Shown: positions 8,814 to 29,472, counted from the first letter of the stretch. The stretch is DNA of 64,000 bases from Lentisphaeria bacterium (GCA_017457105.1 JAFTIA010000065.1:1-64000), one strand, 5' to 3'. The notes: generated by a model from the sequence alone, not told the origin. Program-made: numbers and translations.

Positions 8814-8864
8814 AAAAAGCCGGTATCGAGCCTATGCAGCAAAAGCATTGGCGTTGATACCGGC
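8812..8864 (-). terminator. Nested-stem Rho-independent terminator
   Basis: GCCGGTATC and GATACCGGC (8819-8827 with 8856-8864) pair perfectly. Inside them, GCC/GGC and ATGC/GCAT pair again, forming one long nested hairpin. On the minus strand it is followed by seven T (8812-8818). It ends the minus-strand leuCD transcript. The last ten or so codons and the stop of the truncated DUF1016 gene lie within it, and the T run touches the stop codon of the convergent DJ-1 gene. Confidence 0.85.
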
Positions 8865-9458
8865 AATCACGCAGTCCCTGCAAAACAGGCTTCCATGCTG
8901 TTCAGCAAGGAAAGTACCCACTTTCAGATGCTCGCGCAGAATGTATTTATTCCAATGTGCCGTATATGCCAAATGGATATAAAACAGCCGTTCTTCCAAT
9001 GTTTCTGTTTTATTGAGAATTTCTATGTGATGAGAAAATCCGATCCCAAGAAATTCTTGCGGGTTGATTTCGGCAGCCCATGGCTGGCGATTTGTGGCGA
9101 CTAATACATCAGATTTTATTGTTTGTACAGAATCAGGCAATTCGCCAGCCGGCGGCTGGCGATTTATATAAGGCATCCACACTTCAAAAAACTGTCTCAT
9201 GTTTTTCAGGTTATTCACTGAAAAACCTTTCAATCCCGGTAATTCTCTTTTTAATTGAGAGCTGATAGCCTCTATTGCCCCTGTTCCCCAAAAGCCTTTG
9301 CGGGAGTTTTCAGAAACATAACGCCCGATACCATAGTACAATGATAAAAGCTCTCGATTAGAATTGATAGTTGCCCTTTGTTGACTCTCAAGAATAGCTT
9401 GTTTCAAGACAAAAACGGCTTCTCTTACCCCTTGAAAATCTAAATTATTCTCACTCAT
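8832..9458 (-). pseudogene. Truncated DUF1016 (YhcG-like) gene
   Basis: The 208-residue product matches the N-terminal half of DUF1016/YhcG proteins, including the LYYGIGRYVSEN and GFSVNNLKNMRQF segments and a later HIEIL-NK segment. The family normally has about 350 residues and ends in a PDDEXK nuclease domain, which is missing here. The frame runs instead into a terminator hairpin that supplies the last codons. The gene is AT-richer than its neighbours, which suggests acquisition followed by deletion. The start at 9458 has a GGAG site. A remaining function as a DNA-binding or inhibitory fragment cannot be excluded. Confidence 0.7.
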
Positions 9459-9534
9459 TTCAGCAACTCCATCTATGCCTTCCTCTAACATGCAATACAA
9501 GTATATCAGGCTTTCCCTGTGCCTGCAGCCGGTA

Positions 9535-10560
9535 TTACAAACAGAGAAAATTCAGGACTGCCGGGATCTCCTCCGTTCGTCCGCAGGGGATCAGGCCGCC
9601 GTTTTCCGGATCATAACGGAAACTTGCCAGATTCCCGCTGCGCTCATTCGCTGTGATCACAAATTTGCCGTCCGGCGTAAATACAAAATCACGGGGCCAA
9701 TGTCCGCCGCTCCCCGTGGAACGGATCAACTGCAAAGATTCCGGAGTCATCTCCAGAACAGAAATACTGTCATCCCCACGGTTGGAGATCAGAAGATATT
9801 TGCCGTCCGGAGAAAGCCAAATCGCCCCCGGCCAGTTGGTCATCAAAGGTTCATGGTGAAGCAGATCCAACGTTTCACACAGTTCGGCAGAGCCGTTTTG
9901 CCACGCAAAAATACTTACCGTACTGCCCAGTTCGTTGGCAACGAAAAAGCGTTTCTTATCAGGCGAAAAAAGAAGATGCCGCGGCCCCTCCCCTGCTGGA
10001 ACTTTCACCCGTTCCGGGGCGGAGCACACACCAGCCCCCGCTTTCCACGGATAGAGAAAAATGGAGTCCAGCCCCAGATCCACGGTCATCAGCCGGTCCC
10101 CTTCCGGAGAAAACCCGGTAAAATGGGCGTGAGGCCCCGCCTGACGGGGCAGAACTGCCCCCTGCCCGCTCTGCCGGAAGATCCGGGGTTCCCCCGGCAT
10201 TCCGGTTTCATCCAGCGGGAATTCACTTACCGTACCATCCCCGTACTGGGCAGTGTATAAAAACTTCCCGTCCGGCGAAAGTGTAAGGTGACATGTGTTG
10301 CTCCCCCCCGCCGGAACGCACCGGATCAGACGGGCATCGGCATCAAATACCGCCACTCCGCCCTGATTTTCCACTCCGGAAAGACTGCTGATGGAGCCGT
10401 AAAACTTTTGATATTCCGGAGCATGGATCAGGTAATTCAAATGGGGACACCGGGTATGGAGCGCACTTGTCATCGCTCCGGTTTCCGTATTCAGAGTCAC
10501 ATCATAAATACCGCCGGATTCCCCATCGGATGATATGGCAAAAAAACTGTAATCGCTCAT
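9535..10560 (-). CDS. Lactonase-type seven-bladed beta-propeller (6-phosphogluconolactonase family)
   Basis: This 341-residue protein shows repeated blade segments with the pattern SPDGKFLY / TPDGKFV, as in the YbhE/Pgl lactonase family (cycloisomerase-like). Characterised members hydrolyse 6-phosphogluconolactone in the pentose phosphate pathway, but many paralogues are uncharacterised. No signal peptide is seen. It follows leuD by 16 bases on the same strand. The ATG at 10560 was chosen; a TTG four codons upstream is also possible, and neither has a strong ribosome site, so translation may be coupled to leuD. Confidence 0.78.
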   Translation of the reverse strand: MSDYSFFAISSDGESGGIYDVTLNTETGAMTSALHTRCPHLNYLIHAPEYQKFYGSISSLSGVENQGGVAVFDADARLIRCVPAGGSNTCHLTLSPDGKFLYTAQYGDGTVSEFPLDETGMPGEPRIFRQSGQGAVLPRQAGPHAHFTGFSPEGDRLMTVDLGLDSIFLYPWKAGAGVCSAPERVKVPAGEGPRHLLFSPDKKRFFVANELGSTVSIFAWQNGSAELCETLDLLHHEPLMTNWPGAIWLSPDGKYLLISNRGDDSISVLEMTPESLQLIRSTGSGGHWPRDFVFTPDGKFVITANERSGNLASFRYDPENGGLIPCGRTEEIPAVLNFLCL

Positions 10561-10576
10561 ATCCGGGCCCAACAGA

Positions 10577-11101
10577 TCAATACTTTTTATCGGCGTACCC
10601 GACCCAGCCGCCGGCTTTCACCAGTTCCAGGTCAAAAGCACCAATGGAGAAGGGATAAACTTTTGTTTCTTTCCCGTTGCTGATGGTGAAGGTCTGCTTT
10701 TCCAGATCGGTGGAGCAATCCGCTTCGGCACCGGCAAAAACAGAAAAGATCTCATCGATCACCTCTTCGGCCAGCGAAATCGCCATGCAGCCGCAGTTGA
10801 ACATGTTCTGCCGGAAAATACGGGCAAAGTTCACTGCGATCACCAGATTGATATTGTTATATTCCAATACCCACGGAGCGTGTTCCCGGGAGGAGCCGCA
10901 ACCGAAATTCCGGCGGGTCACAATGACGGCTTTCCCCGCCACATCCCGCTTGGGATCAAACCCGGGCAGCACCAGATCCTCCAGGCAATAGGGGATCAAC
11001 GCTTCTTTCTGCGATTCAGTGAGATACTTCGCAGGAATGATTTCATCGGTATTGATATCGGAACGATCCAGAAAGAGGATCTTGCCACTGAAATTTTTCA
11101 T
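10577..11101 (-). CDS. leuD: 3-isopropylmalate dehydratase small subunit
   Basis: This 174-residue protein is the swivelling domain subunit of the isopropylmalate isomerase LeuCD, which converts 2- to 3-isopropylmalate in leucine synthesis. The DRSDINTDEIIPAKYL start and the CGSSREHAPW substrate loop identify it. It belongs to the short, archaeal/clostridial-type subfamily. It starts 3 bases after the leuC stop. Because members of this subfamily also act on homologous acids such as citramalate-derived substrates, the leucine role is likely but not proved by sequence alone. Confidence 0.93.
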   Translation of the reverse strand: MKNFSGKILFLDRSDINTDEIIPAKYLTESQKEALIPYCLEDLVLPGFDPKRDVAGKAVIVTRRNFGCGSSREHAPWVLEYNNINLVIAVNFARIFRQNMFNCGCMAISLAEEVIDEIFSVFAGAEADCSTDLEKQTFTISNGKETKVYPFSIGAFDLELVKAGGWVGYADKKY

Positions 11102-11104
11102 TTG

Positions 11105-12391
11105 TTACCCCCGGAAAAAAGGCGAATTGCAAATTTCACCGGCAATGGCGGTCGCCGCCGCCGTGGCCGGACTCATCAAATGAACGGTGCCACCCTTCCC
11201 CATGCGCCCGTTAAAGTTGCGGTTGGTGGTGGAAGCGCAGACTTCGCCGGATGCCAGAACCCCGTTGCTCATACCGAGGCAAGCCCCGCAGGTGGGATTG
11301 GTCACGCAGAACCCGGCATCCATGAAGATGGCAATAATGCCTTCTTTCAGGGCTTCCCGGTAAATCAGCGGGGTCGCCGGAGAAACGATGGCACGGACAT
11401 TGGGATGGATCTTTTTGCCTTCCAGAACCTTGGCGGCAATGCGCAGATCTTCCAGACGGCCGTTGGTACAACTGCCGATATAGATCTGATTTACGGGAGT
11501 CCCGGTCATTTCCCGGACAGTCTTCACCTGATCCGGCTTGTTGCCGAAGGTGGCCACAGGCTCCATGGTGTTGGCATCAAACTCGATCACGCGGGCGTAT
11601 TCGGCATCTTCATCCGGCAGGAAAGCCGAATAGGCTTCCAGAGCCGCTTCCTTGCTGGCGAATTCGTCCTTGATAAAGGGCCAGAGATATTCCACAGTGG
11701 TCATGTCGGGGTAACAGATCCCGCAAGTGCCGCCGGCTTCAATGGCCATATTGCAGAGGGTCATACGCTCATCCATCTTCATGGCGGAGATCACCGGACC
11801 GGCAAATTCAATGACGTGATCGGTGGCACCGTTCACGGTGAGATCCCGGATCAGTGTCAGGATCAGGTCCTTGGCATACACGCCTTCGGGCATGGAGCCA
11901 TTCACCTGAATTTTGATGGTCTTGGGTTCACGGAAAGCGCAAACGCCTTTCAGGATCCCCACTTCAAGGTCAGTCGTCCCCACCCCGGCGGCAAAGGCAC
12001 CGAAAGCACCGTGCGTGCAGGTGTGAGAGTCCCCCATGATCACCGTATAACCGGGGCGGACATAGCCCTTTTCCGGGAAGATGGCATGGCAAACGCCGTT
12101 GGCACCGATATCAAAAAAGTCTTTGATCTCATGGCGGCGCGCCCATTCCCGGAGCGTTTTGCCCTGTTCGGCAGTTTTCGAGTCTTTGGCGGGGGACACG
12201 TGGTCGATCACCGCCTTGATCTTCGTGGGATCGAAAACCCGATCCAACCCTCTGGACACCAGATCATTGATGGCGATGGGCGTTGTGATTTCGTGGCAGA
12301 ACACCCGGTCCAGCGACAATACAGACACGCCCTCCGCCGGGACATCCACCCGGTGCGAATCAAAAATTTTCTGTGCAACTGTTTTTCCCAT
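11105..12391 (-). CDS. leuC: 3-isopropylmalate dehydratase large subunit
   Basis: This 428-residue aconitase-family enzyme forms the catalytic partner of LeuD and binds a 4Fe-4S cluster. Cluster cysteines are recognisable in GSCTNGRLEDL and in the CGACLG motif. The ATG at 12391, with AAGGAGG upstream, is preferred to an upstream in-frame start because it begins at the conserved GKTVAQKIF. It is the archaeal-type length of about 420 residues. It begins 1 base after the upstream membrane-protein gene, so the operon runs from the YeeE-like pair through leuC and leuD to the lactonase. No leuA or leuB is in view. Confidence 0.94.
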   Translation of the reverse strand: MGKTVAQKIFDSHRVDVPAEGVSVLSLDRVFCHEITTPIAINDLVSRGLDRVFDPTKIKAVIDHVSPAKDSKTAEQGKTLREWARRHEIKDFFDIGANGVCHAIFPEKGYVRPGYTVIMGDSHTCTHGAFGAFAAGVGTTDLEVGILKGVCAFREPKTIKIQVNGSMPEGVYAKDLILTLIRDLTVNGATDHVIEFAGPVISAMKMDERMTLCNMAIEAGGTCGICYPDMTTVEYLWPFIKDEFASKEAALEAYSAFLPDEDAEYARVIEFDANTMEPVATFGNKPDQVKTVREMTGTPVNQIYIGSCTNGRLEDLRIAAKVLEGKKIHPNVRAIVSPATPLIYREALKEGIIAIFMDAGFCVTNPTCGACLGMSNGVLASGEVCASTTNRNFNGRMGKGGTVHLMSPATAAATAIAGEICNSPFFRG

Positions 12392-13627: not shown

Positions 13628-15082
13628 TTACCGACTGGCTTCCCATTCACGGATCCGGCTCAAAATCTCTTTTTTCGAGGATGGCGGGGTTGAAATCATC
13701 ACTTCATACGCCATTTGGGAAGTAAATTTCTCCGCACGGCTGTCAAATGCACGCTGACGCATTTTAGTGATCACGCCATTCAAATCCGCCCCGCTGAAAT
13801 TCTCCGTTTGTGCAGTCATATAGTCCACCATTCCCGGTTCACAGGGCAGTCCGGTGGCAAATGCCCGTGCCAGCATCTGATGCCGGGCAGCCGCAGACGG
13901 AAGCCCCACAAAAGCCAGCACATCAAACCGTCCGGGCCGTAAAAAGGCTTCGTCAATCTGCCAGGGCATATTGGTGGCCCCCAGGAGCAATATGGGATTT
14001 TTATGCTTGACCACGCCATCCATTTCCTGTAAAATCACCGAAATAACTTTCTGGGTCACCTCATGGATATCATCCGTGCGTTTCCGGAAAATCGTTTCCA
14101 TTTCATCAATAAATATCACAGAAAGTTTGTGTTTCCGGGCTTCCTGAAAGATCCGGAGGATATTCTTTTCCGAATCCCCCACATACCGCCCGAATACATC
14201 TGCCGAGGTAATCATGTAAAAAGGCAAATTCAATTCCCCTGCCACGGCCCGGGCAAGAAATGTCTTCCCGGTTCCGGGAGGCCCATACAACAGCACCCCG
14301 CCGCCGGGTTTGAGATTGTATTTTTTTGCCCGTTGCGGATCCCGCAAGGGTTCAATCAGCCGCAGACGGATCTGTTCTTTTACCTCATTCATCCCCGCCA
14401 CATCGTTCAGCCGGATATCCGGTCGTTCAGCAAGACATACTCCATCGGTATTCGCCCCGTCCGGAGAGGGCTGCGGGGCAAGCACTCCCCGGATGATCTG
14501 CAGAGCCCCCAAAATTAAAATCGTCCCGCAAATCACAAATGCAAAAATCCGGATACTGCCATAATGGAGAAAATGCTCATTGAGCCAGAACATCCCCTTC
14601 CAGGTGAAAACTGTACTCAAAATCAGCGTAAGACTGCATACTGCAGCACTGATGTAACGGCGGATCTTCGGCGGGAAACAATCTATTGGTGTCAATTTGC
14701 TGAAAAGTTTGCAAAAAAAGAACAATCCGGCAAGCACCACCAGCGAAACCCCGCCCAGAGCCGCCAATTTGACCACCGGAATATTCCCGACAAACGGGAT
14801 CTCACTGACCCGTTCTGCCAAAGCCTTGCAGGGCCCTATGAGAAACGGTGCAAGAATAAGCATCATCAACCCGTGAAAAACAGCATCCGGCTTTCCATCC
14901 GCCACGCCCCGGGCCATAGAGGCTGCCGGAAACGCTAAAAAAAGTGCACAAAACCACGGCACCCCCAGAACATTCCGGAAGAGAAAAAAAGTTCCGAGCC
15001 AAACAACAGCACCGGTCAACTGCTTCCATACAAGCATGTGATCGGTGTCTTGCTTGACATCCTGACGGGCCTTTTCCTGCAT
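13628..15082 (-). CDS. Membrane-anchored AAA ATPase, FtsH/Vps4-like without protease domain
   Basis: This 484-residue protein has about six hydrophobic segments in residues 20-200 and one AAA module after that. Walker A is GPPGTGKT (267-274), the pore loop is GRYVGDSE (298-305), Walker B is VIFIDE (322-327), sensor 1 is GATN (368-371) and the arginine-finger region is RPGR (382-385). The AAA module resembles FtsH and the Vps4/katanin/Msp1 group. No HExxH zinc-protease domain follows; the protein ends about 30 residues after the AAA lid. It could extract or remodel membrane proteins, as Msp1 does. That role is an inference. A TATAAT box lies at 15105-15110 on the minus strand. Confidence 0.85.
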   Translation of the reverse strand: MQEKARQDVKQDTDHMLVWKQLTGAVVWLGTFFLFRNVLGVPWFCALFLAFPAASMARGVADGKPDAVFHGLMMLILAPFLIGPCKALAERVSEIPFVGNIPVVKLAALGGVSLVVLAGLFFFCKLFSKLTPIDCFPPKIRRYISAAVCSLTLILSTVFTWKGMFWLNEHFLHYGSIRIFAFVICGTILILGALQIIRGVLAPQPSPDGANTDGVCLAERPDIRLNDVAGMNEVKEQIRLRLIEPLRDPQRAKKYNLKPGGGVLLYGPPGTGKTFLARAVAGELNLPFYMITSADVFGRYVGDSEKNILRIFQEARKHKLSVIFIDEMETIFRKRTDDIHEVTQKVISVILQEMDGVVKHKNPILLLGATNMPWQIDEAFLRPGRFDVLAFVGLPSAAARHQMLARAFATGLPCEPGMVDYMTAQTENFSGADLNGVITKMRQRAFDSRAEKFTSQMAYEVMISTPPSSKKEILSRIREWEASR

Positions 15083-16438: not shown

Positions 16439-18139
16439 ATGAGCAGAAAAGATGTCATTAACAGCGGGATCCAGCTTGCCAAGAAGTATGGATTCACGGT
16501 CCCCCCGGCCCTTGACAAGGAAATTGCCGATCTGGCCAATCCCCAGTACCGGATTGCTGTTGTCGGGAAATATCAGGTAGGGAAATCTACATTGATCAAC
16601 CGCGTTTTCCTGAAAAACAATCCGATTTTAACGGAAGGCAACGGATTGGCCACAACCGCAGCCGGGACCGAAACCTCCTGGGGAACGAACCGCTCCATGC
16701 AAGTCTATGGCTGGGATAATAATTGCATTAAAACGATCAACGATCCCACTGCGGAGGATGTCCGGGAGTGGACCGTGGGGGCAGAAGGGGCTCGCGAAGA
16801 GCTGATCAATAAAGTCGGCAAGGTCTGCATCACGGAGCCGAACGACGGCTTGAAATCTTATACGATCCTTGATACTCCCGGCATAGATGACCCGGATGTC
16901 AATCTGCTTATCAAGACCACCTATAACATTATCCCCAGTGCCGATGCGGCCATCCTGGTGACAGAACCCAAAATACTGGACTCTCGGGAGATCGAACTGC
17001 TGCAGAACAAGTTGGTTGCAAACGGCATCTCCCGGCTGATGGTCATGATTTCCTACCATCCGGAAAAGTTTGATATGACCGTCAAGCGGCGTGCCGATAT
17101 TGTGGAAACGATCAAAGCAATGCTGAGCAATGCCGGGGTAAAGAATGTCCCGGTCTACATGTTCAGTTTTGACCCGGAACTGGATGATACGCTGAATACT
17201 CCCGAAAAAATCAATACTGCCATCCTCCAATACCTTGATGCCAATGTGCAGCCCGGCCGTGAAGACCGGGTCGTTGCTCATGTCAAGAAATTTTTGGGCG
17301 ATTGTGTCGAAGCACTGAAAGTGCGGATTGCCGCAGCCGGCATGTCTGCAGAAAAACGCAGTGCAAAAATACTTGAACTGGATGCCCAGCGCAAGGAAAT
17401 GGAAGATAAATTTGCCAAATTACACGGTCGCCTGAATGATGACTTTTCTGAGATTGCCGCTCGTCACAGCCAGGATTTGAAAACAAAATGCCGTCAGATT
17501 TTTAAAGATGCCCGCGAAACAATCGACAAAGCAGAAGATATTACAGGGATGAAAAAAAATATTGATTCTCTGAATGAAAATCTGCAGAAAAGTTTGGCAG
17601 ACCTTCTTCTTGCCAAAACTGCAGATATGAAGGAAGAGATCCGCGTGGCTGTTGCCAAAAGAATTCCAGAAATGGAAATCGGGCGCCCCAAGACACCCGA
17701 CACCTCTATTGAGGATATTGCATTTGATCCGGGATTCCTTGCCAAAATCCCGAACTGGGTTTATGAAATCCTCAACGTTTTTGGCGTTGACTTCCTGATG
17801 CCGGGGGGATTCATTTGGGGAACAATTTTCCGTATTATCCAGAGCAGAATTCCCGTGCTGAAAGATCTTAAGCTTCAGAATGGGGTACTTGCGTTGATGA
17901 AAATGAATATTAACAGCAACATTGTGAACGCCTCTCAAGAGTTGCAAGGCCAAATTGATGAAAAATTCAAAGAAGCCTTTGCCGCAATGTCACAGAAGTT
18001 CAATGAAGAATTCAAGGAACTTTTGGATAAACGCATTGCAATGATCAAGAAAAGCATCACCGATGCACCGGAAGCCGTGGATACCATCTCACTCGAAAAT
18101 GGCGTCACGGAAATCAATTGTTTTATTTCTGCGAATTAA
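16439..18139 (+). CDS. Dynamin-like large GTPase, first of the cluster
   Basis: This 566-residue protein has a dynamin-family GTPase head followed by long helical segments. The P-loop is GKYQVGKST (43-51), the G2 threonine lies in ATTAAGTE (71-78) and G3 is DTPG (145-148). The G4 motif is not canonical. A coiled-coil region follows at about residues 295-400, and a hydrophobic, Gly/Pro-containing stretch at about 430-472 resembles the membrane-inserting paddle of bacterial dynamins. Predicted role: GTP-driven membrane binding and remodelling. It opens a six-gene plus-strand operon and has a strong ribosome site. A perfect hairpin follows the stop codon. Confidence 0.82.
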   Translation: MSRKDVINSGIQLAKKYGFTVPPALDKEIADLANPQYRIAVVGKYQVGKSTLINRVFLKNNPILTEGNGLATTAAGTETSWGTNRSMQVYGWDNNCIKTINDPTAEDVREWTVGAEGAREELINKVGKVCITEPNDGLKSYTILDTPGIDDPDVNLLIKTTYNIIPSADAAILVTEPKILDSREIELLQNKLVANGISRLMVMISYHPEKFDMTVKRRADIVETIKAMLSNAGVKNVPVYMFSFDPELDDTLNTPEKINTAILQYLDANVQPGREDRVVAHVKKFLGDCVEALKVRIAAAGMSAEKRSAKILELDAQRKEMEDKFAKLHGRLNDDFSEIAARHSQDLKTKCRQIFKDARETIDKAEDITGMKKNIDSLNENLQKSLADLLLAKTADMKEEIRVAVAKRIPEMEIGRPKTPDTSIEDIAFDPGFLAKIPNWVYEILNVFGVDFLMPGGFIWGTIFRIIQSRIPVLKDLKLQNGVLALMKMNINSNIVNASQELQGQIDEKFKEAFAAMSQKFNEEFKELLDKRIAMIKKSITDAPEAVDTISLENGVTEINCFISAN

Positions 18140-18159
18140 AACGCTGACTTGAAACACGC

Positions 18160-18190
18160 TCCCCGGGCAGAGTCCGACTCTGCCCGGGGA
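18160..18190 (+). other. Strong intercistronic hairpin between two dynamin-like genes
   Basis: A perfect 14-bp stem (18160-18173 with 18177-18190) closes a three-base loop. Its arm begins TCCCCGGGCAG. No T run follows on either strand, so it is not a classical terminator. It probably protects the 3' end of the first message or reduces read-through to the next gene. Confidence 0.75.
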
Positions 18191-18224
18191 AACACCCCCA
18201 TCCATATTAAAGAAGAGAAAAAAA

Positions 18225-20654
18225 ATGGCACTGAAAACTGTCGATATCACCAATCCCGCCGCCTGGTATTCCACCCGTCGTGACGATCTGCTGAACCTGC
18301 TGGAAACAACAGCTCGGCTGGATGTCCCCGCTGACTACAAAGATGAATTTGCTGAAGTTCATAAAAAATGCCTGGAAAACCAATTTGAAATCGTACTGGT
18401 CGGCGAATTCCAGGGCGGAAAATCCACCACATTCAACACCCTGTGCGGCGGCCGGGAGTTGAGTCCCCGGGGACTTAACGGCGGCGGGATCAAGACCAGT
18501 GCCGCAGTGATCTCTGCCCAGAATATTTCGGACGGAGAAGTCCAGAATGGTCGCGAAGAATGGGCCGAAATCACCTTTAAAAGCAAAAAAGATCTGCTTT
18601 CCAACATGTTTGATGTATTGGTCAAGGCCGGACAGATTCAAACGCAATTTCCCAAATTAAAATGGGAAACCGAAAGCGATTTTCTGAAAAATTTGGATCT
18701 GGATAACCCCGCCCACAGAAAAGTCATGAGTAATACAGTCCATCAATTATGGGAGAAAAAAAAAGATCTGGACAACGATGACTTGAAGGACAATATGCGT
18801 ATTGCAACGCTGATATTGAAATTCTACGGCACGCCGGAATACAAAAAACTCTGTGAAAAAAAGATAACGGATGTCTTTTCTTTTCAGAAGCTGATCCAAT
18901 TTCCGGACCAGTGGGAAATTGCATGGATGCAAAAAGAAAATGCTAATTTTACATTTGACGAGATCGCCTTTGTCTTCATCTCCCGGGTACTGCTGCGAAT
19001 CAAATCGCCTCACCTTGCCCGGCTCGGCTGCCGGATCACGGACTGCCCCGGACTTTTTGCCAATTCCTATGATACGCGAGTTGCGAAAGCGGCTATCCAT
19101 GCGTCGGATGCAGTCTGGTATCTCCTGAATGGAGATAAGCAGATGGGCCAAAGTGATATTAAAATTTTGGACATGCTGCAAAAAGAAGGAATCAGCGACC
19201 GGCAAATCATCTCCGCTAATATGAAGAGTGAACATGCCCAGAAAATTGCCACCATTATTCCGGCGGATCAAGCGATCCTCACAAACAGCGGCTTGAATTC
19301 CGCTGTCAATCCCTATAACGCCCGACTGGCATTGCTGTCAGAACAGGGACAGATGATCCTTGACGGCACCCTGTCCGACCATGATAAAAAAATCATGGAA
19401 ATCGACTTTGGCCGCGATCCGCAATCGCCGGAAAAAATGTGGCTGAAAATGGTCAATAAAATTGGGGTTAAAGTGGATGTGCCGAAAATTGAGGATTTGG
19501 ATACTCTTGATGCAAACGCCATTTCAACGGTCAAAGACGAAAGCCGTCTGGAAAATATCCTGTCTTTCATCAACCAGCGGATCATCAAAGATAAATCGCA
19601 GAGTATTTTGCTGGACAACGGCAGTGTCCGGGCCGCAAAGGCCCTGAAGGCTTATGAAGGGGAACTGCAATCCAAGGAAGATGCCGCCCGGCAGAGTAAA
19701 GAAGAAGCCGAAAAAGAAAAGGCTGAAGCCGACCGCAAAATGGAGGAATTTCAGAAGGCCTCTCTCAATATCATTGATGAATCTCCTTTTGTAGCCCAAA
19801 AGCATCAAAATGCCAAGTATTATGCCGGAGAACTGATCAAGGAAGCATTCTCCGACAAAACACTCAGGAATGAAATTACAGAGGTGCTTTTGGATGGTCT
19901 CTGGGAGAAAGCAGGAAGTTTTTATCTTTTCATGGAAAATTTCAAAAACGATGTTATGGCTGCAGTAGGACCGGAAATCGGTGTGCGCATGAACGATGCA
20001 TTGATCCAAACCTGGCAAAAGTGGAAAGACAAGAAAAATACATTTTGTGAATGGCAGGGCAATTATCTGAAAAGCATCGCCAAAACCAATCGCAAAATTG
20101 AAGAGAAGTGGCGTGATGTAAAGTGCGATGAAATCAATTTGCTGAAGGGACTGGATGATTTTGATGTTCCAGTCGATGATCTTGATATTGCTATTCAGAC
20201 CATCGGGGAAGATGCCAATATACGGGAAGCCATGGACAAAGCCAAATGCAATTTATTCGGGTTGATATGGCACGGGCTCAAAGCGATTTTTACCGGGGAA
20301 ACTACGGAAGAGTATTTCAAGGCCGCAAATCGTCCCAAAGTGGAAGCCGCAATCGCAAGTGTCTTACGCAACGTAGGCTATTTTAGCGACACCCAAGATG
20401 GACTGGCAAGGTCATTTCGTAAATATTCCGAGCAGGTGGAAGATAACCTCTTAAACAAGCTCAAACTTGTTCAAGAAGCATACGAAAAACGTAAAAAAGA
20501 GAAAGATGCTATTTTTAAGGAAAAACAGGCGGTCCAGCAGCAAATTGCTGCAGAAGCCCATGCCACCCGGACACAGAAAATCGAACCTGTACGCAAGGAG
20601 ATCGAGGAATTCCAGCAGCAGGTGACAAAAGAGATCAGGCAGGTTTGCAAATAA
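18225..20654 (+). CDS. Dynamin-like large GTPase, second of the cluster
   Basis: This 809-residue protein has a P-loop GEFQGGKST (60-68), a G3-like DCPG at about 273-276 and a long insertion between G1 and G3. A highly charged coiled coil spans about 475-512, a hydrophobic helix lies at about 678-690, and a second coiled coil occupies about 740-800. This order of head, stalk, paddle and stalk matches large bacterial dynamin-like proteins, which often work as unequal pairs. It likely pairs with the 566-residue GTPase encoded just upstream. Start codon ATG is preceded by AAGAAGAGAAA. Its stop shares one base with the next start (TAATG). Confidence 0.82.
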   Translation: MALKTVDITNPAAWYSTRRDDLLNLLETTARLDVPADYKDEFAEVHKKCLENQFEIVLVGEFQGGKSTTFNTLCGGRELSPRGLNGGGIKTSAAVISAQNISDGEVQNGREEWAEITFKSKKDLLSNMFDVLVKAGQIQTQFPKLKWETESDFLKNLDLDNPAHRKVMSNTVHQLWEKKKDLDNDDLKDNMRIATLILKFYGTPEYKKLCEKKITDVFSFQKLIQFPDQWEIAWMQKENANFTFDEIAFVFISRVLLRIKSPHLARLGCRITDCPGLFANSYDTRVAKAAIHASDAVWYLLNGDKQMGQSDIKILDMLQKEGISDRQIISANMKSEHAQKIATIIPADQAILTNSGLNSAVNPYNARLALLSEQGQMILDGTLSDHDKKIMEIDFGRDPQSPEKMWLKMVNKIGVKVDVPKIEDLDTLDANAISTVKDESRLENILSFINQRIIKDKSQSILLDNGSVRAAKALKAYEGELQSKEDAARQSKEEAEKEKAEADRKMEEFQKASLNIIDESPFVAQKHQNAKYYAGELIKEAFSDKTLRNEITEVLLDGLWEKAGSFYLFMENFKNDVMAAVGPEIGVRMNDALIQTWQKWKDKKNTFCEWQGNYLKSIAKTNRKIEEKWRDVKCDEINLLKGLDDFDVPVDDLDIAIQTIGEDANIREAMDKAKCNLFGLIWHGLKAIFTGETTEEYFKAANRPKVEAAIASVLRNVGYFSDTQDGLARSFRKYSEQVEDNLLNKLKLVQEAYEKRKKEKDAIFKEKQAVQQQIAAEAHATRTQKIEPVRKEIEEFQQQVTKEIRQVCK

Positions 20655-21490
20655 TGGACACCTGCACCATTACAATCGCAGGTCGCTTCCAGCAAGGCAA
20701 GTCCACTCTTGTGAACTGCCTGCTGGAAGGGAAGTTTGCGGAGACCGGAAACGGTCTCCGTACAACTGCCTGCAACACAGTTTACCGCTACGGGCCGAAA
20801 AAAGAAAAATTTTTTCTGACTGCAGATGGCCAAAAACTATCGCCGCCCAAGAATCCAAAAAACTACCGTCCGGGAGACCGGATGGTAGTTGCTCTGCCCC
20901 ATCCTCTGCTGCAAAATGTCACGATCATTGATTCTCCGGGCGTGGGTGCATCCGAGGCAGATGATGCTTTAGCCGCCAACGCAATTCAACAGTCCCATGC
21001 CGTTCTGCTTCTGCTGGAAAAGGGCACTTTACATGCCACAGAGCAAACCATTCTGGAGCAATGCCGGGCAAGTGGAACAAAGCTGATTGTGCTATTCAAC
21101 GGCAAAGACACCAATAAGTGGCATCCGGAAGAAAATAAATTTATTTGTGAAACCATTGAAGCACAACTCATTAACAGCGGTTTCCATGATGTCATTCTCC
21201 CCATTGCCGGGAAAAAAGTTTTCCCATGCAATCTTCTGTGGGCATGGAACGCTGTGACCGGTAAAGTAGATGATAAAACAAAAAAACTTGATTATAAACT
21301 GGACACTCCGGCAAAATGTCGGGATGCAAGCGGCATTCAAAATATCCGCCACGCCATCCACAATATTCCCGGCATTCTGGCAATGGATTTTATGTCCAAT
21401 ATGGACTCCGAAATTGAACGGATCTCGTCCAAACTGGAAGCAGAAATGGATAAGATCATTCAGGAAACAGCAAAGAAATGGAACGCTTGA
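20654..21490 (+). CDS. Dynamin-like GTPase head-only protein
   Basis: This 278-residue protein is a GTPase domain with little else. The P-loop GRFQQGKST is at residues 10-18, almost at the N terminus, G3 is DSPG at about 93-96, and the G4-like sequence is FNGKD. After the head there is only a short helical tail. Dynamins normally need a stalk for assembly and a membrane-binding part, both lacking here. The ATG at 20654 overlaps the TAA of the preceding gene. The two small genes directly downstream may encode the missing helical parts. Confidence 0.78.
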   Translation: MDTCTITIAGRFQQGKSTLVNCLLEGKFAETGNGLRTTACNTVYRYGPKKEKFFLTADGQKLSPPKNPKNYRPGDRMVVALPHPLLQNVTIIDSPGVGASEADDALAANAIQQSHAVLLLLEKGTLHATEQTILEQCRASGTKLIVLFNGKDTNKWHPEENKFICETIEAQLINSGFHDVILPIAGKKVFPCNLLWAWNAVTGKVDDKTKKLDYKLDTPAKCRDASGIQNIRHAIHNIPGILAMDFMSNMDSEIERISSKLEAEMDKIIQETAKKWNA

Positions 21491-21491
21491 A

Positions 21492-21818
21492 ATGAAAAAA
21501 TTCAGAGTTGTCAAAGAAAGTCACATCACTGGTGACGATTATACTACTATCGGCGTTCCTGAAAAGCAGGATATTCTTGATTGGCTGAAAAAAGATCTGA
21601 AAAAAATGCAGGATGAGATCGAGTCATTAAACCAAAAGATCGCTGATCTTGAAAAAGAAAAGAAACAGCGGGAAAATATGTTTCAAGAGCTTGCCGGAGA
21701 ATTAAAACAATGCGTTATCAGCACAAACGAGGAAGCAATGACATACTGCCTCTCCATGATGTCAAAATGGATGATGGATCAAATTAATCAGAAAAATGCA
21801 AAGAAATTAAAAAAATGA
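21492..21818 (+). CDS. Small coiled-coil protein
   Basis: This 108-residue, Lys/Glu-rich protein has a clear heptad-like coiled coil at about residues 28-70, and a Met-rich helical tail. I do not recognise a family. It starts one base after the stop of the GTPase head gene and ends in an ATGA overlap with the next gene, so it is translationally coupled on both sides. The likely role is an adaptor or structural partner of the GTPase, which is inference from position. Confidence 0.75.
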   Translation: MKKFRVVKESHITGDDYTTIGVPEKQDILDWLKKDLKKMQDEIESLNQKIADLEKEKKQRENMFQELAGELKQCVISTNEEAMTYCLSMMSKWMMDQINQKNAKKLKK

Positions 21819-22783
21819 AATACGATGATATGAACACGATGGAAATACTGGATGAAAACAATATCCAGACAACAGCCCGTAACATTGCACAAGAAGTTAC
21901 AGGAAAAATCATCCGGGATGACAACTTGAAAAAACAAATCGCCGATCAACTGCAAAAGAAAGCCTATGAACTGCGCTTTCACCCTTTCCTTACAGAAGAG
22001 CATTATCAGAAAGAAATTCTTGCAAAATCAGCACCGTATCTTTCCCGGATTTTAAAATCCGCTGTCAAAGAAAAACTTGAAGAAGAAAATCAAAACTGGG
22101 ATTCTTCATGGCACCGTTACCAGCAGAACCTTTCTGCTCTGATTGAGAAAAAAATCAATGGACCTGCATGCAGCAGCAATCCATCTGTAAATATGCAAGT
22201 GAAGTCAACTGTCAGTATCACGGAAATATCATTCAAGATCAATCCTGTTTTCAACCTGAAAGAGATACTGATTCCGAATTTTCTGGAAATCATCTTCCCG
22301 CCGCTGAAAATCTTTGGAAAAATCAAAATTGTTATAGATATTATTAAAAACGCAACTTACGATCAGTTCCGGCAACATTACGCAAGAATGTTTGAAGAAG
22401 CAGTCCGGAAACGTTTTTCGGAGCAAGGGTTCTATGACAATATACAAGAAATGTTGTACAATGAATTTTTAAGCCTGTTTAAGAAGATCAAAGATGTCAT
22501 TGAAAAACAAAAGACACACCCGGACACAGCCTCTTTACTGCAGAAGATAAATGCATTGATGCCGTCTGATGATGCGGATAAAGAAATCCCCACCACAGAA
22601 ACGAGCATTGCCCAAAAGATCACCGATGCCACCCAAAATTTGAGCAAGTCGTTATTGGAAAAAATTCCGGATAATGTAAAAGAAACAACAGAGAAAATAA
22701 AAGATAAAGGTATCTGCATGCTGAAAAAACCGGCATCCTTGAAAAACTCTTTATTAGGTTCATATTCAAAAAAGGAAAAGTAA
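21815..22783 (+). CDS. Helical stalk/paddle-like protein of the dynamin cluster
   Basis: This 322-residue protein has no P-loop and no family I recognise. It is mainly helical, with a hydrophobic Pro-containing stretch around residues 149-175 (IPNFLEIIFPPLKIFGKIK) that resembles in character the paddle region of the 566-residue GTPase, which reads IPNWVYEIL at the same kind of place. The C-terminal third is Lys/Glu/Thr-rich and probably flexible. The ATG overlaps the upstream stop as ATGA. I infer that it supplies a stalk or membrane-binding part to the head-only GTPase. Confidence 0.7.
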   Translation: MKYDDMNTMEILDENNIQTTARNIAQEVTGKIIRDDNLKKQIADQLQKKAYELRFHPFLTEEHYQKEILAKSAPYLSRILKSAVKEKLEEENQNWDSSWHRYQQNLSALIEKKINGPACSSNPSVNMQVKSTVSITEISFKINPVFNLKEILIPNFLEIIFPPLKIFGKIKIVIDIIKNATYDQFRQHYARMFEEAVRKRFSEQGFYDNIQEMLYNEFLSLFKKIKDVIEKQKTHPDTASLLQKINALMPSDDADKEIPTTETSIAQKITDATQNLSKSLLEKIPDNVKETTEKIKDKGICMLKKPASLKNSLLGSYSKKEK

Positions 22784-22822
22784 GCTGCTTTTCTTTGAAC
22801 ATTTGTGGAAGAAAAATTTATC

Positions 22823-24118
22823 ATGAGTTATTTCAGCGATTTAAAAAATGATATGGCATCCCGGTGGAACATGATCCGTAATAAAGAAAACGGGTGCGGG
22901 AAACGCCTTTTTGCCGCAGCGGAACTTCTTTGCTTCCCCGCAAGTATTCTTACTTTGATTTTACTGCTTCCGGCACAGATCGTTGCCGCAAAATGCGGAT
23001 GGGATTGCCCCCAATGGGCTTTCCGTACTCTTGCGGTCCTCGTCTCCGCCGCAGTCGGCTACATCACCAATTATATTGCCATTGAAATGCTTTTTAAGCC
23101 CTACAAACCTCAAAAATGGCTCTTCCTCTGGCCGCAAGGGTTGATCCCCCGCAATAAACATAAAATCGGGGAGGAACTGGGAACTCAAGTCGCTGAAAAT
23201 CTCCTCAAACCTCAAGAGATCGCCGATGAACTGTGTCAGATGGTCACAGCAGCTGTACGCAACCCCAATGTCACCGGGAAACTGCGGGATGCAGTCCAGA
23301 ATCTTTTGAGAGATAATATGGACAAAATCACCGTTCACCTTATTCCCAAAATCGAAGAGTCTGTTTCTGCCGAACTTTCCCGGCATATTTCCCCGCAGAA
23401 TATCATGCCGCTCTGGGAAAACTACCTCGCTCCCAAACTGGCAGCAGAAGATACCCGTACCCTTATTGCCCGGGAAATCGTCAGCAGCCTGCAAAAGAAG
23501 TCCCCGCAACTTACCAATATGCTGAAAGATGGCCTCCGGGAATACGCTCAAAGTTTTCTGGAAAAAAAACTCCCCCTCGGCTTTGGCGCTGATTTTCTTG
23601 CCAATGGTTTGGTCGCTTTTATCGACTGGCCGGATATCGAAAAGAAACTTGCTGAAAAAATCGCCGATCCCGCCGTCCGGGACATGATCCGTGATGAACT
23701 TTCCTCTCTTGCGGACCGCCTTGATGAATGGCTTAAAACTCCCGCAGGGCAGGAAAAACTTGCAACCTGGAGTACCGCATTGAGCAAAAAGTTCCAACAG
23801 TGGCTGAAAACCTATCTGGAAGAAAATCTCCCCCGCATTGCCCGCCAGATGCTTGCCTCTGACGATCTCTGGGACTGGATCGAAAAAACCATGATCCCCG
23901 CCGCTGAACCCAAAATCAAAGAGTTCATAGCTTCTCAAAAAGATGAGATCGTCCGGAAACTTGATATCAAAAACCGGGTATCCAATGCCATTGACCATCA
24001 GGATGTCCGGGAATTTCACAACATGATCAACTCCGTTGCCGCTGAACACCTCGGCGCCATTCAGGTCCTCGGCTTCCTTCTCGGAGCGGTCATCGGGTTG
24101 CTTCAGCTCCTCATTTGA
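22823..24118 (+). CDS. DUF445 family membrane protein
   Basis: This 431-residue protein has two N-terminal membrane helices (about 34-56 and 66-90), the DUF445 signature GYITNYIAIEMLFKP (79-93), a long helical cytoplasmic or periplasmic region, and a C-terminal hydrophobic helix. DUF445 proteins (E. coli YjiN group) have no firmly assigned function. The ATG at 22823 is preferred, with a GGAAGA site 10 bases upstream; a GTG six codons earlier is also possible. It ends the operon and probably anchors the dynamin-like proteins at a membrane, which is an inference from position. Confidence 0.85.
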   Translation: MSYFSDLKNDMASRWNMIRNKENGCGKRLFAAAELLCFPASILTLILLLPAQIVAAKCGWDCPQWAFRTLAVLVSAAVGYITNYIAIEMLFKPYKPQKWLFLWPQGLIPRNKHKIGEELGTQVAENLLKPQEIADELCQMVTAAVRNPNVTGKLRDAVQNLLRDNMDKITVHLIPKIEESVSAELSRHISPQNIMPLWENYLAPKLAAEDTRTLIAREIVSSLQKKSPQLTNMLKDGLREYAQSFLEKKLPLGFGADFLANGLVAFIDWPDIEKKLAEKIADPAVRDMIRDELSSLADRLDEWLKTPAGQEKLATWSTALSKKFQQWLKTYLEENLPRIARQMLASDDLWDWIEKTMIPAAEPKIKEFIASQKDEIVRKLDIKNRVSNAIDHQDVREFHNMINSVAAEHLGAIQVLGFLLGAVIGLLQLLI

Positions 24119-24147: not shown

Positions 24148-24176
24148 TTGACAATTTTTTGATTGGGGTGTATAAT
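24148..24176 (+). promoter_or_regulatory. Consensus sigma70 promoter of the LacI-family gene
   Basis: TTGACA (24148-24153) and TATAAT (24171-24176) are separated by exactly 17 bases, matching the consensus at all twelve positions. Confidence 0.9.
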
Positions 24177-29154: not shown

Positions 29155-29472
29155 ATGGAAGACTGGATCGAGATCAACCGGGATGAGCGGCATATCAAAA
29201 AAGAGCGTGCCAAAGCCCGTGAACTGCGTAAAACCCCGTATTATCAGGCTCTTTTCCGGGCAGGACTCTGCCATTACTGCGGCAAAAAATTTCCGGAGGA
29301 AGAGTTGACACTGGATCACATCGTCCCCGTGGCACGGGGCGGCAAAAGTACCCGGGGCAACCTCGTTGTCTGCTGCCGCGCCTGCAATCAGGCAAAAAAA
29401 TATTTGACCCCGGCTGAAATGCTCCTGCGGAAACTGGAGGCGGAAAACAATGCTGACATACCTGAAAATTGA
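29155..29472 (+). CDS. HNH endonuclease, small
   Basis: This 105-residue protein carries an HNH motif: CHYC (39-42), DH (54-55), Asn69 and CCRAC (73-77), so it has the zinc-binding Cys pairs of the Cys4-HNH group. The N-terminal 30 residues are basic and helical. Its product nicks or cuts DNA, in an unknown context. The coding end overlaps recN by 23 bases, placing the two genes in one transcript. Confidence 0.85.
   Translation: MEDWIEINRDERHIKKERAKARELRKTPYYQALFRAGLCHYCGKKFPEEELTLDHIVPVARGGKSTRGNLVVCCRACNQAKKYLTPAEMLLRKLEAENNADIPEN

Follow-up and report, generated by a model that had tools for sequence, protein, structure and literature searches.

Why do bacteria keep unequal sets of dynamins, and what role do these proteins play? 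This open question is raised anew by a run of six plus-strand genes, here called g1 to g6 (16439 to 24118), in a 64,000-nucleotide (nt) stretch of DNA from Lentisphaeria bacterium (GCA_017457105.1, JAFTIA010000065.1:1-64000). Coordinates count from the first base of this whole stretch, which we call the window. An earlier reading made from the sequence alone, the original prediction, took all six genes as one operon of dynamin-like GTPases, partner proteins, and a DUF445 membrane protein. Comparison with related sets in other genomes instead places g1, g2, g3, and probably g4 in a conserved core, and we give about even weight to the explanation that this core is a horizontally acquired multi-dynamin cassette working as a membrane machine.

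Three dynamin-type GTPases and a coiled-coil protein

We used domain, profile, and structural comparisons to identify the proteins of the core. The two large proteins, encoded by g1 (16439 to 18139; 566 amino acids [aa]) and g2 (18225 to 20654; 809 aa), are dynamin-like GTPases as had been predicted, based on Dynamin_N matches, the g1 profile, and the g2 fold. The Pfam family Dynamin_N matched g1 at 3.3e-9 and the smaller g3 (20654 to 21490; 278 aa) at 1.8e-11, and it matched g2 at 2.3e-5, slightly below the Pfam cutoff. All three proteins retain the P-loop and the DxPG motif. Searched alone, g1 matched IniA (1.1e-9), and the g1-family profile matched PDB entries for IniA (4e-20) and BDLP1 (3.5e-14), the latter over almost the full length (BDLP residues 57 to 660). 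A hydrophobic stretch in g1, FGVDFLMPGGFIWGTIF, was picked out by eye and considered as a candidate membrane-binding paddle.

The g2 sequence profile matched nothing in solved structures beyond the GTPase motifs, so its assignment comes from an AlphaFold2 (AF2) model, built with 11 sequences and having a predicted local distance difference test score (pLDDT) of 80.8. The best PDB folds for this model were SynDLP (6.6e-14), followed by BDLP, IniA, and Cj-DLP1, and 36 of 36 PDB matches at E <= 0.001 were dynamin-superfamily proteins. The model thus predicts that g2 is a complete dynamin fold, nearest to SynDLP. In g2, an insert of ~165 residues separates the P-loop/switch I region from the DCPG motif, which is therefore found at residue 273, versus residues 93 to 145 for the DxPG motif in g3 and g1. 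A helical neck and stalk following the G domain are supported for g1 by the profile and for g2 by the model; g3 has neither. The predicted head-only GTPase is indeed a G domain alone: besides the Dynamin_N match, the g3 profile matched solved structures only at the G domains of Cj-DLP2 and mitofusins, with Cj-DLP2 closest. In nearly all sets, g3 sits immediately 3' of g2.

The next gene, g4 (21492 to 21818; 108 aa), encodes the coiled-coil protein of the original prediction, for which Pfam gives coiled-coil cross-hits only. In sets with an unfused g3 and enough sequence, g4 is the next gene after g3, except in locus L036, where one gene intervenes; in several relatives the C terminus of g4 is a hydrophobic segment. 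In a leave-one-out search with a weak N-terminal motif of g4, the window copy was the top new match among 1638 background open reading frames (ORFs), at E = 0.21; the g4 copies of L031 and L036b were not top-ranked when omitted. Position and motif together make g4 a probable core member.

The core recurs in divergent genomes

The original prediction expected the six genes to be found together elsewhere. We recovered the co-occurrence and order of g1-g2-g3-g4 in divergent genomes, and this was not the case for g5 and the DUF445 gene. The recurrent order is g1-(gX)-g2-g3-g4, where gX is an extra dynamin, and was found in L029, L031, L032, L033, and L036, with fragments in L030 and L038. The arrangement is g1-gX-g2-g3-g4 in L031 and g1-g2-g3-g4 in L033, and extends to g1-gX-g2-g3-g2'-g3'-g4-g4'-M48-patatin in L029. 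Locus L032, which is one genome region with L020, reads DUF445-g1-gX-g2-g3-g4, a part that was not resolved, and patatin; its gX was seen between g1 and g2 in the raw sequence, where the automatic map had chosen the reverse frame. In L036, the order is a kinase:g1 fusion-g2-g3-membrane protein-g4-g4'. The fragments are gX-g2-g3 in L030, which fills an entire 4-kb contig, and g2-g3-g4 in L038, where g1 of the same genome (G040) is on a separate contig, L111. In L029 to L033, L036, and L038, g2 and g3 either overlap or almost touch, and the g2 proteins of L030 and L031 are 91% identical.

A reduced form, with g2 followed by g3 fused to TPR repeats (L034 and L035), occurs in Methanosarcina and Desulfosarcina, so that reduced versions are seen in one archaeon and in sulfate reducers. 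In L037 and L039, g2 is present without g3, and g1-g2 arrays of a more distant kind are found in L022 to L027 and L040. Full sets were found as two sets in one class, and in a reindeer metagenome-assembled genome (MAG), a second Victivallales genome, and a Lentisphaera MAG. The L032 host is Verrucomicrobia UBA6982, and the L029 host belongs to the same class, which we take to be Kiritimatiellae. Hosts overall also include a Victivallales lake genome, a Spirochaetaceae MAG, Desulfosarcina, other Desulfobacterota, and Methanosarcina.

Across seven hosts, divergence was correlated between g1 and g2 (Spearman 0.70, p = 0.008) and between g2 and g3 (0.52, p = 0.0095), with a value of 0.40 (p = 0.06) for g1 and g3; common host history can add to these correlations.

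Several related sets have features of their own. The second g2 copy in L029 (13697 to 16597) has no recognizable P-loop, and this duplicate may be a non-hydrolyzing partner. The g1 of G040 (L111:310-2565) has an N-terminal extension bearing a DUF1232 domain. In the Desulfosarcina locus, L034, an Hsp70 frame continues into the g2 frame (8844 to 11779; possibly a frameshift), g2 is split into two frames, and two more dynamins lie upstream.

Rarity and horizontal spread

The g2 profile matched 11 of 388 genomes of the phylum, more distant paralogues counted. A search of 84,980 species genomes gave 12 loci. In the sampled phyla of Desulfosarcina (297 genomes), the Spirochaetaceae MAG (296), and Methanosarcina (158), the query genome alone was matched. 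Because g2 is so rare and patchy, its distribution indicates that the cassette spread horizontally. The run is also AT-richer than its flanks, as predicted: GC content is 0.47, 0.46, 0.47, 0.36, 0.38, and 0.49 for g1 to g6, compared to 0.49 to 0.58 for neighboring genes, and AT content is highest in g4 and g5.

Carriage by a phage or plasmid was rejected, as searches of phages, plasmids, and viral contigs found no copy of the cassette. Insertion at a tRNA site was likewise rejected, as the only tRNA, at 1502, is 15 kb away. The LacI-family gene that follows g6 has only distant homologues in relatives (best about 38 to 43%), and no orthologous insertion site could therefore be fixed.

g5 and the DUF445 gene are not part of the cassette

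The original prediction counted g5 and g6 as integral members of the set. The g5 protein (21815 to 22783; 322 aa), described as paddle-like, received only a helical model of very low confidence (pLDDT 44) and gave no profile match to dynamin stalks. We rejected a detached dynamin stalk or paddle, based on empty hhalign comparisons with the g1, g2, and gX profiles and an uninformative AF2 model. We also rejected a soluble relative of DUF445, for which a weak Pfam match (0.004) was accompanied by only 3.7% probability in profile comparison. No significant g5 homologue was found among 149 relatives or in any related set, leaving g5 as an orphan for which no family was found.

The family identity of g6 (22823 to 24118) as a DUF445 membrane protein stands (Pfam, 1.5e-35); its membership with the dynamins does not. 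Long-type DUF445 genes were matched in 47 of 289 genomes of the phylum, many partially, and none of the 20 DUF445 neighborhoods of relatives contained a dynamin. In a tree, g6 clusters with DUF445s of its own family (support, 96/92) and not with the copy in L032. That copy is the sole second case of DUF445 next to dynamins; it lies 0.6 kb upstream of g1, is uncoupled, and is 33% identical. Among the eight other genomes with cassette genes, DUF445 was absent from seven and on a different contig in the eighth, and no DUF445 accompanies the set in L029, whose host shares its class with that of L032. By these sequence comparisons, g6 belongs to the lineage rather than to the core, though it is in the same apparent transcription unit, and both g5 and g6 are passengers or local additions.

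Elsewhere, in L084 (8144 to 14528), a long DUF445 gene adjoins large genes that appear by eye to be DISARM-like, one of them with an MrfA Zn-binding domain.

Comparison with known systems

As a rule, bacterial dynamins function in unequal pairs (PMC6104087), and most occur in tandem operons (PMC6104087, PMC4159319). DynA clusters at damaged membranes, and at the membrane when phage infects, and it delays lysis by the phage (PMC8844932), while the Leo genes support vesicle release (PMC4159319). Escherichia coli LeoABC resembles the cassette in having adjacent dynamin genes and a head-bearing fragment separate from a stalk-bearing protein (LeoC/LeoB) (PMC4159319). However, one Leo dynamin is split in two, whereas g3 is an extra, complete head beside complete g1 and g2; the cassette also has the large G-domain insert of g2 and a coiled-coil partner. 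PADLOC profiles for LeoA and LeoBC matched g1, g2, and g3 weakly and over part of their length (1e-7 to 1e-15), as expected for any related dynamin.

IniA/IniC and DynA share the logic of paired or two-headed dynamins, and g1 is most similar to IniA, but a head-only GTPase or coiled-coil partner was not found described for them in the literature searched. The tethering pair Cj-DLP1/DLP2 (PMC6104087) also consists of unequal dynamins, and the g3 head is nearest Cj-DLP2 among solved structures; this pair, however, has two genes and no free head. SynDLP is the top structural match of the g2 model, with ~14% identity in that alignment; the g2 family differs from it in having the long switch I-DxPG insert. 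The DO-GTPase/GAP1 conflict systems (PMC7159879) have a GTPase core with variable components, at times Hsp70, kinase, or TPR, but the cassette GTPases are of the dynamin type, a different family, and lack GAP1; at E 0.1, Pfam gave no DO-GTPase or GAP1 match for any of the six.

The cassette is best read as a form of bacterial tandem-dynamin operon related to Leo, IniA, and SynDLP. The set had not been recognized as a described one when first predicted, and we found no description of it either: within the literature searched, the four-gene dynamin core is new as a described arrangement.

Defense context and add-on genes

A defense-island setting had also been suggested. None was found in the window, where the neighbors tested with PADLOC gave no match of substance. 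The PADLOC match at 29450 was rejected as a defense gene and read as a RecN-like SMC protein, as was that at 13628, read as an FtsH/CDC48-like AAA protein; the latter gene (13628 to 15082) encodes a membrane AAA ATPase of the FtsH/CDC48 type without an evident protease domain. The only complete set beside PADLOC phage-defense candidates is L031, with PDC-S05 and PDC-S02 at 0.6 to 3 kb upstream.

In other hosts, the core is accompanied by add-on genes. A patatin-like lipase lies directly downstream in L029 (18622 to 20445) and L032 (15309 to 16295), joined in L029 by the M48 peptidase. The patatin catalytic motifs are intact (GxSxG as GTSAG or GTSVG; DG as DGS or DGG), and the protein weakly resembles phospholipase effectors of the cyclic oligonucleotide-based antiphage signaling system (CBASS; 1.9e-8). 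Other add-ons are the kinase fused to g1 in L036, the TPR fused to g3 in L034 and L035, and Hsp70 beside or fused to dynamins in some loci. An anti-phage defense role of the cassette is plausible.

Another genome from the order of the window encodes a 1121-aa protein that combines an Hsp70-type ATPase domain with a dynamin G domain (L107:4854-8216), within an array of further dynamins. Three genes beside dynamin arrays (L036:7562-8503, L040:14752-15765, and L027:5270-6352) make up a family that has no Pfam match and is marked by the motif HHLIDGQHD and by hydrophobic segments.

Proposed function and alternative explanations

We interpret the cassette as a heteromeric machine with g3 as an in-trans partner, because dynamins pair unequally, DynA delays lysis, and Leo aids vesicle release. 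The analysis shows what the genes are, that their order recurs, that divergence within the core is correlated, which fold g2 has, and that the cassette is rare; protein contacts, the trigger, and the outcome are inferred. Through their stalks, g1 and g2 would form unequal membrane-binding dynamin polymers. The stalkless g3 would pair head-to-head with g1 or g2 through their GTPase domains, acting as a GTP-dependent switch or cap, and the g4 coiled coil would tether the complex to the membrane or a client. Assembly at a membrane damaged by envelope stress or phage lysis would then seal or hold it. Elsewhere, this core would be wired to a patatin lipase, an M48 peptidase, a kinase, TPR, or Hsp70. 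The cassette probably acts on stressed membranes; it appears to be a mobile machine for membrane remodeling, with possible protection against phages or damage to the envelope. We hold more tentatively, and with some doubt, that it represents an undescribed system of immunity or membrane integrity, rare and spread horizontally, whose heteromeric dynamin core and free head would be a common chassis for these modules, which differ from host to host. Weighing against the membrane machine are the weak link between g4 genes of different sets at the sequence level, the lack of anything within the window to suggest a trigger, and the failure to find an empty insertion site, the window genome being an incomplete draft of 114 contigs.

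Variable add-ons around one core (patatin, M48, kinase, TPR, and Hsp70) would also fit a GTPase-centered conflict system working by abortive infection: on sensing an infection, the dynamin core would release a variable effector damaging to the membrane or the cell of its own host, and this effector would be g5 or g6 in the window. The DO-GTPase systems, whose components include Hsp70, kinase, and TPR (PMC7159879), are a parallel to these add-ons, and both the patatin, with intact motifs and a weak likeness to CBASS effectors, and the position of L031 next to PDC-S05 and PDC-S02 point the same way. A recognizable effector was not found in the window, however, and with window neighbors lacking a defense match of substance, no copies among the phages, plasmids, and viral contigs searched, and no DO-GTPase or GAP1 domain by Pfam, we consider such a system unlikely. 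The cassette could instead be an ordinary, unusually long tandem-dynamin operon with a resident non-defense role in the envelope, such as vesiculation, septation, or drug or stress tolerance. Tandem arrangement is the norm among bacterial dynamins (PMC6104087, PMC4159319), the Leo genes promote vesicle release (PMC4159319), and other, unrelated dynamin arrays (L107 to L110) occur in the same order. Yet rarity, patchiness, AT-richness, and exchangeable add-ons are atypical of housekeeping genes, making this quite improbable. A true six-gene system, with DUF445 and the helical g5 integral, would account for the single strand, the nearly touching genes, and the DUF445 upstream of g1 in L032; the dynamin-free DUF445 neighborhoods, the g6 tree, the genome survey, the L029 set, and the orphan status of g5 largely refute it, and we give it very little credence.

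For the membrane-machine cassette, the combination of a free head, a coiled-coil partner, and exchangeable modules offers a tractable test of in-trans regulation between dynamin heads. It also lets one ask whether dynamin assemblies drive defense effectors besides repairing membranes.

Gene junctions and regulatory features

All six ORFs were confirmed on the plus strand, overlapping or nearly touching as predicted, except for an 85-nt gap between g1 and g2. The last four starts had been predicted to be coupled or within 40 bases, and the junctions agree: g2 and g3 overlap by 1 nt, g3 and g4 are separated by 1 nt, g4 and g5 overlap by 4 nt, and g5 and g6 are 21 or 39 nt apart, depending on the g6 start. 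The g3 start is the ATG at 20654, which overlaps the g2 stop; an in-frame TTG is also present at 20645. The true g4 start is the ATG at 21492, within a longer ORF listed from 21270, and is preferred because the 21270 start falls within g3. The g6 start is probably the ATG at 22823 rather than the GTG at 22805, since DUF445 relatives align from 22823 by eye.

The g1-g2 gap contains a hairpin (18161 to 18189), a perfect inverted repeat CCCCGGGCAGAGTC-C-GACTCTGCCCGGGG that is unique in the window and has no T tract (RNA fold z = -4.6). It is possibly a terminator, attenuator, or processing site; given this hairpin and the 85-base gap, g1 may be partly uncoupled. The transcription unit probably ends with g6, because the LacI-family gene that follows has its own consensus sigma-70-like promoter on the plus strand (24148 to 24176), with 12/12 matches to TTGACA-17-TATAAT.

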